Assembly: GCF_026210795.1 (NCBI RefSeq)
Contig: NC_089451.1
Coordinates: 3,332,001-3,396,000 of the forward strand
From: Rhizophagus irregularis
Taxonomy: Eukaryota; Glomeromycota; Glomeromycetes; Glomerales; Glomeraceae
Length of the DNA stretch: 64,000 bases
Direction of reading: 5' to 3'
In this document: positions 44,680-62,246 of the stretch, in pieces
How positions within the stretch are numbered: the stretch's first letter is position 1
Layout of the letters: every line of letters begins with the position of its first letter
Position numbers and translations under genes: made by a program
The notes under the pieces: generated by a model
Told to the model about the DNA's origin: nothing
What the model saw: only the letters and a program-made list of their open reading frames with translations
The model's database searches: none

Positions 44680-45330
44680 TCTTAGAATTTTTGATGCGTT
44701 AGTCTTTCAAAAGAAAATGGCCGGAAAAGAAGATCATTAAGAGTACGGACTCGAGACACTGCCACAAATGATAGACCAGCGACGTATTCTCTTACACCGA
44801 AATCTATTATGGCCTTTGGCAGTTCAACCCTTGGCTTTTATGAACTGTTACTCGCCCACGCAAGACAAATAAGAAGTTGCGGGCGTGAACAAGTTGTTGA
44901 TTTTGCTGGCCACGTTTGTCGCATAGGTACAAGCTTTTTGCCTTCCAAAGTTGTAATAGCTGGGCCCGTATAATTGTCAAATTCGATGAGGACAGCATTT
45001 GGAAGAGATTGTGGTCCTTGGCTTCTTTAAACAAAATTTCTTGGACGAATCTCATTGAACCATTTACTAACCCTGCATCTGTCCACAAGTTAGCTCTGAG
45101 TATAAAGCGTGCGCCTCTGGCGAGTAGCAGATGAGCTTCAAGATCTTTTTCTGTATTAGAATCTGCCTTAGGTGCATCACGACCTGTATGTACAGCATGG
45201 ATTTTGGCGATGGGACAGTTTAGAGATCTAAGTTTATTATGGTTGGCCTCATAAACATCGATCTTTCGAGGTAGAATAAATGTGGCATCGGAGAATGGTC
45301 TGTTTAGGTGAATCAGCAAGTGTAGTAAGT
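44680..45330 (-). pseudogene. C-terminal fragment of a Pif1-type helicase, frameshifted
   Basis: The minus strand reads ILPRKIDVYEANHNKLRSLN, IAKIHAVHTGRDAPKADS and LLARGARFILRANLWTDAGL, and then, after a frameshift, AVLIEFDNYTGPAITTLEGK. It returns to the first frame for RGRVTVHKSQGL and shifts again for LPKAIIDFGVREYVAGLSF and VAVSRVRTL. These are the late motifs of Pif1/RRM3 SF1B helicases (TVHKSQG, then SRVR). The N-terminal ATPase core is absent. Such copies are very frequent in these genomes, both as free genes and as Helitron cargo. It is dead. Confidence 0.8.
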
Positions 45331-49524: not shown

Positions 49525-50737
49525 TTATTTATACATACCAATTCTATAATTATTCAAATCATCACTTACTACATTTTCAAGAATTTCATCATCACTTAGT
49601 ATTATTCGTAAATCTTCACTTTCAAGAATTTCATTCAATTTTTTACTAGTAAAATCAAATAAGCGACTTGTATAACATGTTTGTGGATGAGATTCAATAG
49701 CAAAATTGTTATGCTGCCCAATTGGTAGTGCATCTATAAATTCCATAATACTGTGTTTTAATTCTTCATTAATATCTTCAATTTTCTTTCTTGTAGGAAG
49801 ATAAATCCATTTTTCAATAATATCTAATACTTCCTTAGCAGATGGCCTTTTTAATGGATCTTCATCCCAACATTTTTTCATTAAATCTACATAGCATTGT
49901 GGAGTATTTTCAATAATTTCAGGACGTTCACCTTTACAAATATCTAAACTAAGGTAAATATCATGTGCTCTATTATTAAATGGTGGCACTCCAGATGTAA
50001 ATTCCCACATAATCATAGAAAAACTATATATATCACTAGCCGGAGTATAAGGTTTACCTCTTAAAACTTCAGGTGCCATAAATGACATAACACCATAAAT
50101 ATCATACCTTTTCAAAATTGATTTTACAGGTCTACATAATCCTAAATCACTAATATAAATTTTATCCTTATTCTTAACATTATGATTTAAAATATTGCCA
50201 TCATGAAAATCACAATGAGTAAGATTATTTTTATGTATTTCATTAAGTCCAGAAATAATTTCATACAACATGCATAATTTTTGCTTCCAATGATTTTTCA
50301 TTATTTCCATCAAATTTCCTCTTAAATCACCTTTGTTTGCATAATCCATTACTACCATATATTTTGGAATGCTTGAATCTTCTGTAAATCCATGAAAATT
50401 AATAATATCACTTGAACTTAAACATTTTTCATGATATATCCACTATAAAAAAATAATATTAATATATTAATATAAATAAATTACAATTTAAATTAAAAAA
50501 ATAATAATATACTATCATACCTCATTTAAAAATTCATTTAAATTCTCATTTAAATTCTTGTGACATTTAAGAATTACATCTTTATTTCCATCATTATTTG
50601 ACCAAATAGCTTTATATATAGTACCAAATCCTCCTTCATTAAGATATTCAATATTTTGAAATTTATTATAAGGAATCCATTTTAATTTTTTTTTAAGAAT
50701 AAAATCATCTATAATTGCATTCCCACTTTTCCCAAAT
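49525..50737 (-). CDS. TKL-like protein kinase, 5' end not visible
   Basis: Two exons, 50521-50737 and 49525-50442, give at least 377 residues up to TAA at 49525. The domain has all core motifs: NEGGFGTIYKAIW glycine loop, VILKC lysine, HCDFHDGNIL catalytic loop, ISDLGLCR and APEVLRG, with a conserved tail to about residue 300. The first visible exon opens with FGKSGNAIIDDFIL, equivalent to the SGNNEVDKFIQ segment of the kinase at 42.4-43.9 kb. The Cys-rich leader and start codon that should precede it are absent from the next 250 bases. Beyond that the minus-strand upstream side is the intron-like satellite. Either the first exon lies far upstream across the satellite, or the gene has lost its 5' end. 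A GTATGT near the end could also be a donor to a further 3' exon. Confidence 0.8.
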
Positions 50738-57065: not shown

Positions 57066-57092
57066 GGGGAGTGTGTAGTCACGTGATTTTTA
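57066..57092 (+). repeat. Left terminal inverted repeat of the TTAA transposon
   Basis: Begins GGGGAGTGTG and contains the palindrome TCACGTGA. It matches 62220-62246 inverted, with one T/C difference. Confidence 0.9.
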
Positions 57093-57437
57093 ATATAAGA
57101 TTGATCGGCGTCAAAAATTTTTCTGCGGTTTTAGATTTTCGCGTCAAAGTCAACGTGATAATCAAATAAACAATATAAAAATAAAAACCACTTTTTCTCA
57201 TTTTTTAGAACCTAAAGTTTCGTCAGGTACAGTTTTTATATAGACTTACATATTATATTTTAGAAGAAAATATCAAAAGAAGTTCAAAAAAAGTTCAGAA
57301 TCGCTATATAAAAGTTCAGAATCCTATTTGCCGGGATTTTTTAGTTACCCAAATTTTATTTCAAAAACGATATTATGCTTTTATTTATTATTTACACTTT
57401 CCAAATTTTAACTTTATTGTTATTCTACTATTTAGAC

Positions 57438-60400
57438 ATGCCTTTACGGAAATGGTATCAAATTTTATGCCAAAGGAATCCGCATTTCGAAAGTTACCAG
57501 CGACCATATAATAATAGTTGGCTTGTATTTGACAAATCCGTACCTTTGGAAGCTTTGGATATACACAACGAACTTGTTACTTCTAGTTCTTCAACAACTA
57601 CTCCATACCTTGCTTTAACAGTACATAATTATCCAAAAGATAACTCTACAAGTACTTGGGTTCCTTTATTAGTTGGTTATACAGTAATAATTCTTTGGAA
57701 AAAAAAACTCTTACGACTTGCAATTACTAAAGACAGCAACAATAATTTAATTTATATGTATGAAGATTATGAAGATGATATTTCTCTTACTGATTGTGTA
57801 CACAGATCCTCCCATCGTAATTTTTTTCATGGATTGATTCATTATCTCAATATAGATGGTCGCGTTTCAATTCCTGCTTTAATAGGACTCAATATTTTGG
57901 AAATTGTGATTCAACTCAGGAATGTAATTAATATGACGTTTCCAAATTTATTCACTCAAGTTAAACAGGCTCATAATGCGATTGTAACTACAAATAGAAT
58001 AAAAAATAAAATGAAACGAAAAGCAAGTAGTTTATGTGAAAATTTAGAAAATAATATATCTACTTCAACAACTTCTAATACAGTAAAAATCAATTCGGGT
58101 ATTTTAATCAGTTCTAATGGTCTTCCCATGACTCCTAAATCGACCCAAGCACTTGTATGTGAATATGCTTCAGAACTTAACGAAAAAAGAAATCTGAAAA
58201 AAAAATTAAAGCGTACAGAAAATAAATTAGTTGAACATGAACAGGCAATGAATCCTTTTATTGTTAACCTACAAGAAAATAAAGAAAATATCGAGAGTAA
58301 GGTTTCAAATTTAATACAAGAATCAAATATAGGTACCACTATGCTCATTAATACAGACCAATTCCTCCGACTAGTATTGTCTCAACCATGTTCGCAATGC
58401 TTTACAATGCTTGATTCTAAACGTCAATATAGTGTTTGTTCTATAGGATTCACTTTCAAAGTTTCAATTACATGTGATTGTGGGAAATATACAGAATATT
58501 CCAATGAAACTTCTTCAAACTTTTCTTTAGCAGTGGCAAGTAGTGGATTAGTAGGAGGAATCAATCGTCAATCACTTGAAATGATATTAGCAACACTTGG
58601 AATAACCCAGCAACTTACCAAAAAATCTCACCATGAAAATCAAAAAAAAATCTTCCATCCGATTTGTAAAAAGGCAGAAGAAAGTGCAAACAAAGCTCTT
58701 CGATTGACATGTGAATATATAAAGCAAATAAATGAAAAAATTCTGCCAGTAAGTTTTGATGTGTCATGGTCACATGTAAGAAATGCAAATCAGGCCAGCG
58801 GAGAATTTATCTTTTCAAAAAAATTAGATGGATATCCTCACAGACCCATTCTTGGATTTTATTTTGTTGAAAAATCGCGTAAATGCAAGAAAAATGGTGA
58901 GAGTGTTATTGTACATAAGGGCAATCATGACAAAAGCTCCAGACAAATGGAACACGCAATATTAATTGCTATTCTTCAAAAAGTTACACCAATTTTGGAA
59001 GAATTTGATCTGCTACTTGATATCGGAATAGATGGAGATTTGGAAAGTAATAAAACACTCGGCACAGTAGCAATAGTTAACCAAATATTTGCTGACTTAA
59101 AACATGTTGCAAAATTAATACGTAGCAAAATTGGTCAGTATGTTTAAAAATATAAATTCAATAAATGGAATTTAATTATTAACTAAATTCACCTTATTTT
59201 TATTATAGTAAAGAATGTACAGTGGCGTTCTTTTGAGCAAGTGATAATGCAGTATTTTAATGGATGCATTTATGCTGCTGGTGCAAGAAAAGCTGATAAA
59301 GAAATAGATACTCCTAGCGAAGATGAATTGAAGTATGTTCAAGTAGAGGGATTAGTTAGACATCTTTGTGGCAATCATTCTTTATGCTGGCCAGAGGTTT
59401 GCTGGATCAAAGAAAATCCTGATATTGAATTGAAAGAACCTAATCTAATTACATATACTGAAAATCAACGATATGCATTCCGCCAATTTTTACTTACAAT
59501 CTTTCAATTACCAAAAGGCCAAGGTTTAGTAACAGAAATTCGCACTTCATCTAATGAATCATTCAATAGAACTAAATTAGTTTATCTTTCTAAATTAATT
59601 GATTATTGGAAGTCATTTGCAGCTCGCTATTCTCTGGCTGTAATCCAAAACAATGAGGGAATTGCAAATCTTTTGGAATTTATTTACACCGTAGGAGTGG
59701 GGAGTTATTCTGAGAATGATATAATAAATATTAGGAAGATACAAGAAGAAAGACAGGCAAATAGAGAACGTAATAATGAAAAGTTAGCACAAAAGACAAA
59801 AGAAAAAGGTGAAAAAATATTAAATCAACGAAATGAATTAGAATCTTTTGACTTTAGTCAAGAATTAGTACCTTATGGTCGCCAGTTTCAAAAAAGAATA
59901 CAACAATATGAAGAATTTACACCCTCATTTGCTTGTTATATCAAAAACTTTTCCACTACAGTCAAATGTATATGTTGCCGCTCTTTTCCCAAATACACAT
60001 CTAGTGGCTTATGTAAATTATGTAATTATTATATTCAAATGGGATACCATGATAGAATTATTAATGAATCATATCAACCAACTTCAAAATTACCTGTTCA
60101 AATAATTCCTCCAGATCAATTTATTCTTCAACATATATTTCAATTTTCTTCATTCCGCTTATATCAACGAGAAGTTATTCAATCATATACCCAAGGTCAG
60201 GATGTTTTTGCATTAATTCAAACAGGAGGTGGCAAAACCTTTTGTTACGCAGCATCCAGTTTGATTTTTTCTGGATTGACAGTAGTGATTTCACCTTTGA
60301 AAGCATTAATTTTAGATCAAGTGGTAATTGTGTAAGATTTAGTGATTATATTTTAAAAATATTAACTTGCCTTTATCTTTACTTCAGAACGAATTAATCA

Positions 60401-62065
60401 AAGTTGGAATACCATGTGCAGGGCTTTACGCAACAACAGGACAATCATTGGAATACCAAGAGAAAGTTTTTCAAGAAATCGTGAGTAAAATGCTCAAAAT
60501 ATTATTGATAACACCAGAAAAACTAATGCTCAATCAAGGTTTTCGTAATATGTTAAGAAAAGTTCATGGAGAAATAGGCGTTAGATTTGTAATAGATGAA
60601 GCCCATTGTATACTGGAATATAACCATTACAGGTAAGAATTACAATTTCTTTTATATATATATATATATATATATTAATCTAAACTTCTTACATTATTTT
60701 ATTAGGCCTGAATGGGGGAAGCTAGGCTGCTTAAAAGAGTTTTTTCCATCCACTTCCATTTTACTTCTTACTGCCACTTGTTCCCAAGATGATGCAGAAG
60801 TAATTCGTCAAAACCTCAATATTAATTCTGTAAACTTTAATGTGATTCGCAGTTCATGCTTTTCCCGTCCTGAAATTGAATATATAGTGAAAAAAAAGAG
60901 TACCCGTGAAAGAAATTTAGTGGAAATAGCTAAAATTGTTAATGAAATTAGTGATGGTCAATGCATAATTTATTGTTCTTCTCCAGGTATATGCAATGAA
61001 ATATTACCTTTATTGCAAGACAAACTAAAAGGCACAGCAATTGGCACTTATCACGGAGGTCTTGAAAGTTTTGAAAGAGATCAAGTTATGCTTCAATGGA
61101 AATCTCGACTACTAAAAGTCATGATAGCAACAAATGCTTTTGGGTTGGGCGTAAATTCACCTAATATTCGCACTGTTGTACATTATACATTTCCGTCTAG
61201 TATAAGTTAGGATTTACTGTATATTATTTGTTAAAATATCAGTTATAAGAAAATTTACCTTTTTCTTTTTATTACATAGGTAATTTTATACAAGAATCCG
61301 GACGTGCAGGTCGTGATGGAAATCCAGCACAAAGCATTTTGTTTTATTCCCGAAATGATATTAAAACTGTATATACCATAATTACAGGAGGCCGTGAAAG
61401 GTACTGTGAATTTCTTTCATTACAAATAAAAAACTTATTTAATAAATAGTTTTCTTTATAGTGATTTCGATAATAATGAATCTACATCTCTTGAACGCAC
61501 ACAATATCTAAACAAGGGGCAAAGGAAGATATTTGAAATGGTTACTTATTGTGAGAGTATTTATGAATGTCGTGCCCAACAACTTGCAGCTTACCATTCA
61601 TGGCAATCCGATTCCAAAATTCCGCGGTGTACAAAATGTGATTGTTGCATAAACTATTTTAAAGATCTTCCAAAATCTGAAAATATTAAAAATGATGTAA
61701 TTCATTTACTGAAAGTTATTATCGCTGTGACAGAATTTTTGGGAATGAGAAATCAACTTACTTTACCTATCGATATTATTCATGTTTTTGCTAAAGCAAA
61801 TAACAATAATATCAAAGAAAAGCAACTCAGTTCTTTACCGATTTACAAACAAGATTACAACAAAACTCTTCGGCGATTTGAAGATATTTCTCGTTTACTT
61901 GACAATTTAATTATAAAAAATTTGGTAAAAGTTCGTATTGATTTAAAAAAAGTAAATACAAGTACAAGTTCTACACAATTGTCCGGTAAAGTAATAATAG
62001 AAGGAATTACCGAAAATGCCATAGAAATAGCACAAAATCGGTGTTGGAGTTTTTTATTGAAATGA
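57438..62065 (+). CDS. DDE transposase fused to RecQ-family DNA helicase, six exons, 1,424 residues
   Basis: Exons 57438-59133, 59209-60323, 60388-60632, 60706-61199, 61280-61400 and 61462-62065 (all GT-AG) total 4,275 bp in frame. I prefer ATG 57438 (MPLRKWYQ) to the in-frame ATG 57375, whose extra 21 residues are purely hydrophobic. Residues 1-300: unknown N-terminal region and coiled coil. CSQC/CDCG zinc pattern about 318-350. Transposase core: FDVSW (Asp441), HKGNHDKSSRQME, GIDGDLES (Asp532/534) and SSNESFNR (Glu682), a DDE triad in the style of Kolobok/Mutator-like enzymes. A CICC...CKLC knuckle precedes the helicase: QTGGGKT (about 904-910), SPLKALILDQV, DEAH (1007-1010), LLTATCS, YHGG, ATNAFGLGV, QESGRAGRDG (about 1190), a RecQ zinc region YCESIYEC...CTKCDCC (about 1253-1288), and a winged-helix-like tail. 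Every helicase motif is present. The helicase may help resolve or copy excision sites; that is inference. Confidence 0.9.
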
Positions 62066-62219
62066 GAGTTACAAAAAATTTATATTGTATTACAAAAAAA
62101 AAAATAAAATATTTTTATAATTTTGGTAGGATTCTGTGATCCTATTCTGGCTGGATTTATGAGACGCCCTTAAAAATTTCCGATTCGGATTCCTAAATTT
62201 TGTGCCATGTTGATCATAA

Positions 62220-62246
62220 TAAAAATCACGTGACTACACGCTCCCC
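62220..62246 (-). repeat. Right terminal inverted repeat of the TTAA transposon
   Basis: The reverse complement begins GGGGAGCGTG with TCACGTGA inside, followed on the plus strand by TTAA at 62247-62250. The 3' UTR of the fusion gene fills the 150 bp before it. Confidence 0.9.

Follow-up and report, generated by a model that had tools for sequence, protein, structure and literature searches.

In a window of 64,000 nucleotides from Rhizophagus irregularis (contig NC_089451.1, positions 3,332,001 to 3,396,000), our analysis identified a 5,181-bp transposable element at window positions 57066-62246, with TTAA on either side. This element is very probably an intact-looking and recently mobile member of KolobokH, a lineage of Kolobok transposons (Kojima and Bao, 2022; PMC9587614), and would encode a DDE transposase and a RecQ-type helicase in a single polypeptide. 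A fusion of this kind has already been described, and the suggestion of a first-pass annotation of this DNA that the fusion belonged to no described family therefore fails, as the element fits the KolobokH structure outlined in two articles (PMC9587614; PMC10989895).

The terminal inverted repeats of the element are 27 bp long with one mismatch (over 28 bases, 26 match), and have the sequence GGGGAG(T/C)GTGTAGTCACGTGATTTTTA. The coordinates, the TTAA duplication and the 27-bp inverted repeats given in the first-pass annotation were recovered, with the two ends differing at one base. A search of the genome (146.7 Mb in 32 contigs) for the inverted repeat together with TTAA, allowing up to three mismatches, returned 33 places, 8 of which correspond to the termini of the four full copies, while a reversed control of this pattern returned none. 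The termini of the element (GG..CC) agree with the 5'-RR / YY-3' ends that characterize Kolobok, and the 4-bp TTAA target duplication of Kolobok is present in the window element and its three closest copies.

These three near-identical copies are located on contigs C22 (L001), C20 and C18, each between TTAA and with differing 40-bp flanks. An alignment of the four close copies (5,183 columns) has 8 substituted and 4 gapped columns, and any two copies differ at 2 to 6 substituted and 2 gapped columns over about 5.18 kb. A single-base indel is present in the coding part of each of the other three copies and may correspond to decay or to assembly error. Joining the flanks of the C20 copy gives a sequence to which many repeats align through the junction; among three aligned relatives of this site (84-87% identical), one has a single TTAA (L047) and two have ATAA (L045 and L046). 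For the C22 site, one longer uninterrupted relative (L048, C1:2405416-2405618) is 73% identical and has one TTAA. In total, exactly one TTAA is present in 2 of the 4 uninterrupted relatives, and the element is present in none of them. When the C22 flanks are joined, an open frame runs across the insertion site, so that this insertion interrupts a coding-like sequence, close to its 3' end.

The gene of the element spans window positions 57438-62065 and is predicted to consist of six exons (1,424 codons), whose product combines a DDE transposase with a full RecQ core (Table 1). A search for GT..AG introns yielded 144 frame-keeping models, including the six-exon fused frame of the first-pass annotation, which we adopted because it fits the RecQ motifs, as judged by eye. 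For intron 4, a donor at 61206 is also plausible, and its use would give a protein of 1,426 amino acids reading FPSSISNFIQESGRAGRDG. Alternative models exist for four of the five introns and all splicing is predicted, which would leave room for two neighboring separate genes joined by the splice model alone; this explanation was rejected as highly improbable, since exon 2 is stop-free from upstream of the transposase E682 to beyond the helicase Walker A motif QTGGGKT, so that the fusion is independent of splicing.

Table 1. Features of the putative KolobokH element and of its gene, in window positions.
Feature	Position	Strand	Basis
Left target-site duplication, TTAA	57062-57065	none	sequence
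Left terminal inverted repeat, starts GGGGAG	57066-57092	+	33 genome places, reversed control 0
Exon 1: N part of transposase; D441 (58758-58760), D532 (59031-59033), DLKH motif (59094-59105)	57438-59133	+	splice models, motifs in relatives
Intron 1: 75 bp, frame-neutral, contains a stop	59134-59208	+	splice models
Exon 2: transposase zinc finger (~59361-59403), E682 (59556-59558), CxxC..CxxC linker (~59967-60023), helicase start with QTGGGKT (60219-60239)	59209-60323	+	motifs
Intron 2	60324-60387		
Exon 3: helicase as far as motif II (VIDEAHC)	60388-60632	+	splice models, motifs, Pfam
Intron 3	60633-60705		
Exon 4: helicase motifs III-V (LTAT, IIYC, ATNAFGLG); may run to 61205	60706-61199	+	splice models, motifs, Pfam	
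Intron 4	61200-61279		
Exon 5: helicase motif VI, QESGRAGRDG	61280-61400	+	splice models, motifs, Pfam
Intron 5	61401-61461		
Exon 6: RecQ zinc-binding and C-terminal regions	61462-62065	+	motifs, Pfam
Right terminal inverted repeat	62220-62246	-	end comparison
Right target-site duplication, TTAA	62247-62250	none	sequence

The transposase half harbors the motifs FDxSWSH (D441), DGDL (D532, taking the first D of DGD as the second catalytic residue), DLKH (residues 553-556) and NExFN (E682), and between DLKH and the glutamate a zinc finger was assigned by eye to H617, H622, C625 and C630. The window protein thus has the features that characterize Kolobok transposases, namely a DDD/E triad with a C/DxxH motif and a zinc finger with a conserved third cysteine (C625). 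We compared these positions in 21 sequences (the window and L001-L020): D441 is present in 20 of them, the remaining one (L020) not being covered there; D532 is present in 20, with N in L007; DLKH is present in 17, reads NLKH in L007 and L013 and was unread in L008 and L009; and both C625 and E682 are present in all 21. The DDE core proposed earlier (Asp441, Asp532/534 and Glu682) is accordingly found in the window and conserved across relatives. Outside this set, L021 has K in place of E682 and Y in place of C630.

The helicase half matches the Pfam families DEAD (2.5e-22), Helicase_C (4.3e-17) and RecQ_Zn_bind (4.1e-6), and its PDB matches are, by name, an ATP-dependent DNA helicase (4.7e-63), helicase Q1 (7.7e-63) and Bloom syndrome helicase (9e-62). 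The window protein contains Walker A, DEAH and motif VI as well as the RecQ zinc region, and RecQ motifs are also found in the relatives; the full motif set and Cys-rich zinc region read in the first pass are therefore supported by motifs, Pfam and PDB matches alike. The RecQ accessory domain RQC exceeded the Pfam cut-off at 9 of the 11 places listed (L004, L005, L012, L015, L017, L018, L022, L023 and the fragment L040), so that the family can carry a full RecQ layout.

We opened 34 coding loci in the genome, namely the four close copies, L004-L020, L021-L029 and L040-L043, the last four from RQC and RECQ1 searches. The divergent loci are 22-64% identical to the window protein per matched stretch. 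Both halves were matched in 27 of the 34 loci (the four close copies, L004-L020 and L021-L026); in two of these one half is incomplete, the transposase of L025 being matched only from residue 676 onward and the helicase of L026 only up to residue 1019. Our script retained same-order, one-strand matches, which made order a filter, but in all 27 loci the helicase is indeed found downstream of the transposase on the same strand. The other seven loci are fragments, with transposase only (L027 and L028), helicase only (L040-L043), or, in the case of L029, a piece adjoining L020 that is probably the front of L020 split off by an insertion. Among the 27 loci, the KolobokH copy L024 (C15:2420800-2428300) is matched with two large interruptions, near residues 567 and 1290, that look like further insertions; DNA within the first of them is 87% identical to the sequence flanking L008 on its 5' side.

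Ends were sought in L004-L020, and TTAA with matching GG..CC ends was found in 10 of these 17 loci (L004, L006, L008-L012, L014, L017 and L018); such clean ends were not found for L005, L007, L013, L015, L016, L019 and L020. The repeat score exceeded the within-locus control in L006, L010, L011, L014, L017 and L018 and fell below it in L012 (29 vs 30), while the end pairs of L004, L008 and L009 came from a scan that required GG..CC and had no control; in L008, two end pairs without TTAA outscored the pair with TTAA. In addition, the near-identity of L008 with L009, of L017 with L018 and of L010 with L014 extends exactly from TTAA to TTAA, which fixes the ends of these three pairs independently.

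Copies without a helicase, which according to the first-pass annotation would point to a captured passenger, were found only in the form of short end-only elements and of the transposase fragments L027 and L028. Among ten short loci that were opened, six (L030-L035, on C14, C17, C31, C32, C9 and C21) have both ends and cover 468-487 bp as measured between the two TTAA; their inverted repeats closely resemble those of the window element, with 6 mismatches at the far end in L035. One end only was found for the remaining four. At best, these end-only elements are perhaps mobilized in trans by the transposase of this element or of a relative, and, being too short for either half, they say nothing against the helicase.

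To assess constraint on each half, we compared the codons of related loci by the Nei-Gojobori method with bootstrap, with frames taken from matches to the window protein, whose ends may include some intron, and with stop codons (between 0 and 10 for each half of a pair) excluded. In ten diverged pairs the ratio of nonsynonymous to synonymous substitution rates (dN/dS) was 0.16-0.22 for the transposase and 0.13-0.22 for the helicase (transposase and helicase, respectively: L017/L004, 0.17 and 0.16; L017/L007, 0.20 and 0.22; L017/L005, 0.16 and 0.20; L004/L005, 0.16 and 0.21; L004/L007, 0.18 and 0.20; L015/L016, 0.17 and 0.13; L012/L015, 0.20 and 0.17; L012/L016, 0.17 and 0.17; L006/L019, 0.22 and 0.16; L005/L023, 0.18 and 0.22). 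The ten pairs share loci, four of them being separate (L017/L004, L005/L023, L015/L016 and L006/L019). A further pair, L017/L025, gave 0.10 for the transposase (110 codons) and 0.23 for the helicase, and the nearly identical pairs L010/L014, L010/L024 and L015/L022 gave intervals too wide for use. The damaged copy L026 compared with L004 gave 0.71 for the transposase and 0.44 for the helicase, indicating that the method does reveal relaxed constraint. The helicase half of the relatives is therefore under purifying selection as strong as that on the transposase half, and by extension the same constraint may be expected in the family of the window element.

Trees of each half were built from 17 of the 27 loci with both halves. 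Each tree has seven well-supported clades, six of which are identical in both, and the seventh ones (L004, L007 and L017 in one tree; L005 and L023 in the other) are compatible. A weaker group in the helicase tree (79/77) would part L004 from L007 and L017, and neither tree gives support to the positions of the window copy, L008, L020 and L021, the last three having long branches. The compatible trees fit one old fusion followed by joint descent. Taking into account that both halves are equally constrained and that their trees share clades, the helicase looks like a working part of the element and not a passenger. The presence of several diverged, recently active KolobokH families in one genome is what makes selection on the helicase measurable, and the equal constraint opens to direct testing the reason for which a RecQ helicase is retained by a cut-and-paste transposon.

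With regard to its identity, the element shares with published KolobokH elements a RecQ helicase downstream of a DDE transposase, the TTAA duplication, 5'-RR..YY-3' ends, the C/DxxH motif and a zinc finger before the last E, and a comparison with their description revealed no difference (PMC9587614). The main text of the same article has no occurrence of "Rhizophagus". A second report describes KolobokH at the telomeres of Cladobotryum mycophilum and, in a passage citing the former work, mentions a similar structure in R. irregularis; the C. mycophilum element likewise has RecQ-like helicase genes, and it measures ~10,470 bp, has two RecQ-like genes and a third gene, and lies beside telomeric repeats (PMC10989895). 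KolobokH has also been listed among the possible sources of fungal helicase domains (PMC10799480), and a Kolobok profile has been applied to R. irregularis in a study whose main text contains neither "helicase" nor "RecQ" (PMC11075540). The window element, in contrast to that of C. mycophilum, is 5,181 bp long with one fused gene.

We know of no piggyBac element with a helicase. No piggyBac family was found among the Pfam matches of the window element and its relatives, the transposase half of the former having no Pfam match at all. piggyBac also targets TTAA, but its ends differ from the RR..YY of Kolobok as described in PMC9587614, and a piggyBac identity is unlikely for the window element, whose ends and motifs fit Kolobok instead. 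AcademH, of the Academ superfamily, is likewise a lineage of DDE transposons that encodes a helicase; it was rejected, as its reported duplications are 9 or 10 bp (PMC10045372) and that of the window element is 4 bp (TTAA).

Several points weigh against the KolobokH assignment of the window element. It is a sequence-based assignment, made from motifs, ends and the published description. The absence of a Pfam match for the window transposase half is accompanied by the absence of any match up to E 10 in a PDB profile search with this half, but, in favor of the assignment, PF20700, a Mutator-like transposase family, was matched by 2 of 6 transposase parts of the family (best 2.2e-6). RQC is above the Pfam cut-off in relatives only and not in the window copy. 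Moreover, several divergent copies have stops or altered catalytic residues, and selection was measured in relatives, the four close copies being too alike for an estimate.

In all likelihood, the helicase serves the propagation of the element itself. The first-pass annotation had proposed that it works for the element in excision, gap repair or copying; selection on the relatives suggests that it does work for the element, and the exact step can be put forward as a proposal. The transposase part would bind the ends, cut and insert at TTAA, and the fused helicase (3'-5' by family) would thereby be brought to the same DNA and remodel it. As the most probable single step, although at less than even odds, the helicase might unwind or resect the DNA left broken by excision and so shift repair towards copying from the sister chromatid, which would restore the element at the donor site and lead to a gain in copies. 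In the sister Kolobok lineages the additional enzyme is a DnaQ-like exonuclease, a lambda-exonuclease-like nuclease or a His-Me finger nuclease (PMC9587614); as these are enzymes of DNA ends and recombination, we favor a role in preparing the donor break for a repair that restores the copy.

A different and rather unlikely role would be at strand transfer or at the opening of the TTAA ends instead of donor-site repair. The fusion would place the helicase at the transposon ends, and the equal constraint on both halves is consistent with such a role; to our knowledge, a helicase is generally not required for cleavage and joining by DDE transposases, which argues against it. We consider it unlikely that the helicase aids amplification by induced recombination, as in the cleavage by an endonuclease followed by unequal crossover proposed for the KolobokP nuclease (PMC9587614), although the presence of other DNA-end enzymes in sister lineages speaks for such a role. 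The four close copies lie on four contigs and form no tandem array, as viewed over ~600 bp of flank for three of them, which argues against this role. Transposons do capture genes, and the end-only relatives and the fragments L027 and L028 show no helicase, but a captured host gene with no part in transposition is very improbable and was rejected, given the joint presence of both halves in all loci other than fragments, the low helicase dN/dS, similar to that of the transposase and well below that of the decayed L026, and the absence of conflict between well-supported clades.

We also searched for cellular RecQ helicases, using TIGR00614 (35 of 137 candidates scored), the cores of human RECQ1 (86 of 86) and human BLM (90 of 90), and the accessory domains RQC (11 of 11) and HRDC (1 of 1). 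No cellular RecQ helicase was found genome-wide in these exon-by-exon searches, which may miss or have masked stretches. With few exceptions, the places found lie in KolobokH loci or in the fragments L040-L043; the exceptions are a DEAD-box helicase, by eye, on C27 (L044), two weak regions from the BLM query on C3 and C13 near PF00270 matches, an HRDC place on C32 and an RQC place below the cut-off at C7:1591762. It is quite doubtful that cellular RecQ helicases of the BLM/Sgs1 or RECQ1 type are missing from the fungus and that its only RecQ helicases are borne by KolobokH, supplying a recombination function that the host lacks or has come to depend on; if a cellular RecQ were truly missing, host and transposon may share a helicase, which could be tested.

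Elsewhere in the window, a 277-residue frame on the minus strand (49525-50358) resembles a protein kinase domain by eye, and another minus-strand frame (44807-45319) resembles, also by eye, the end of a Pif1-like helicase.

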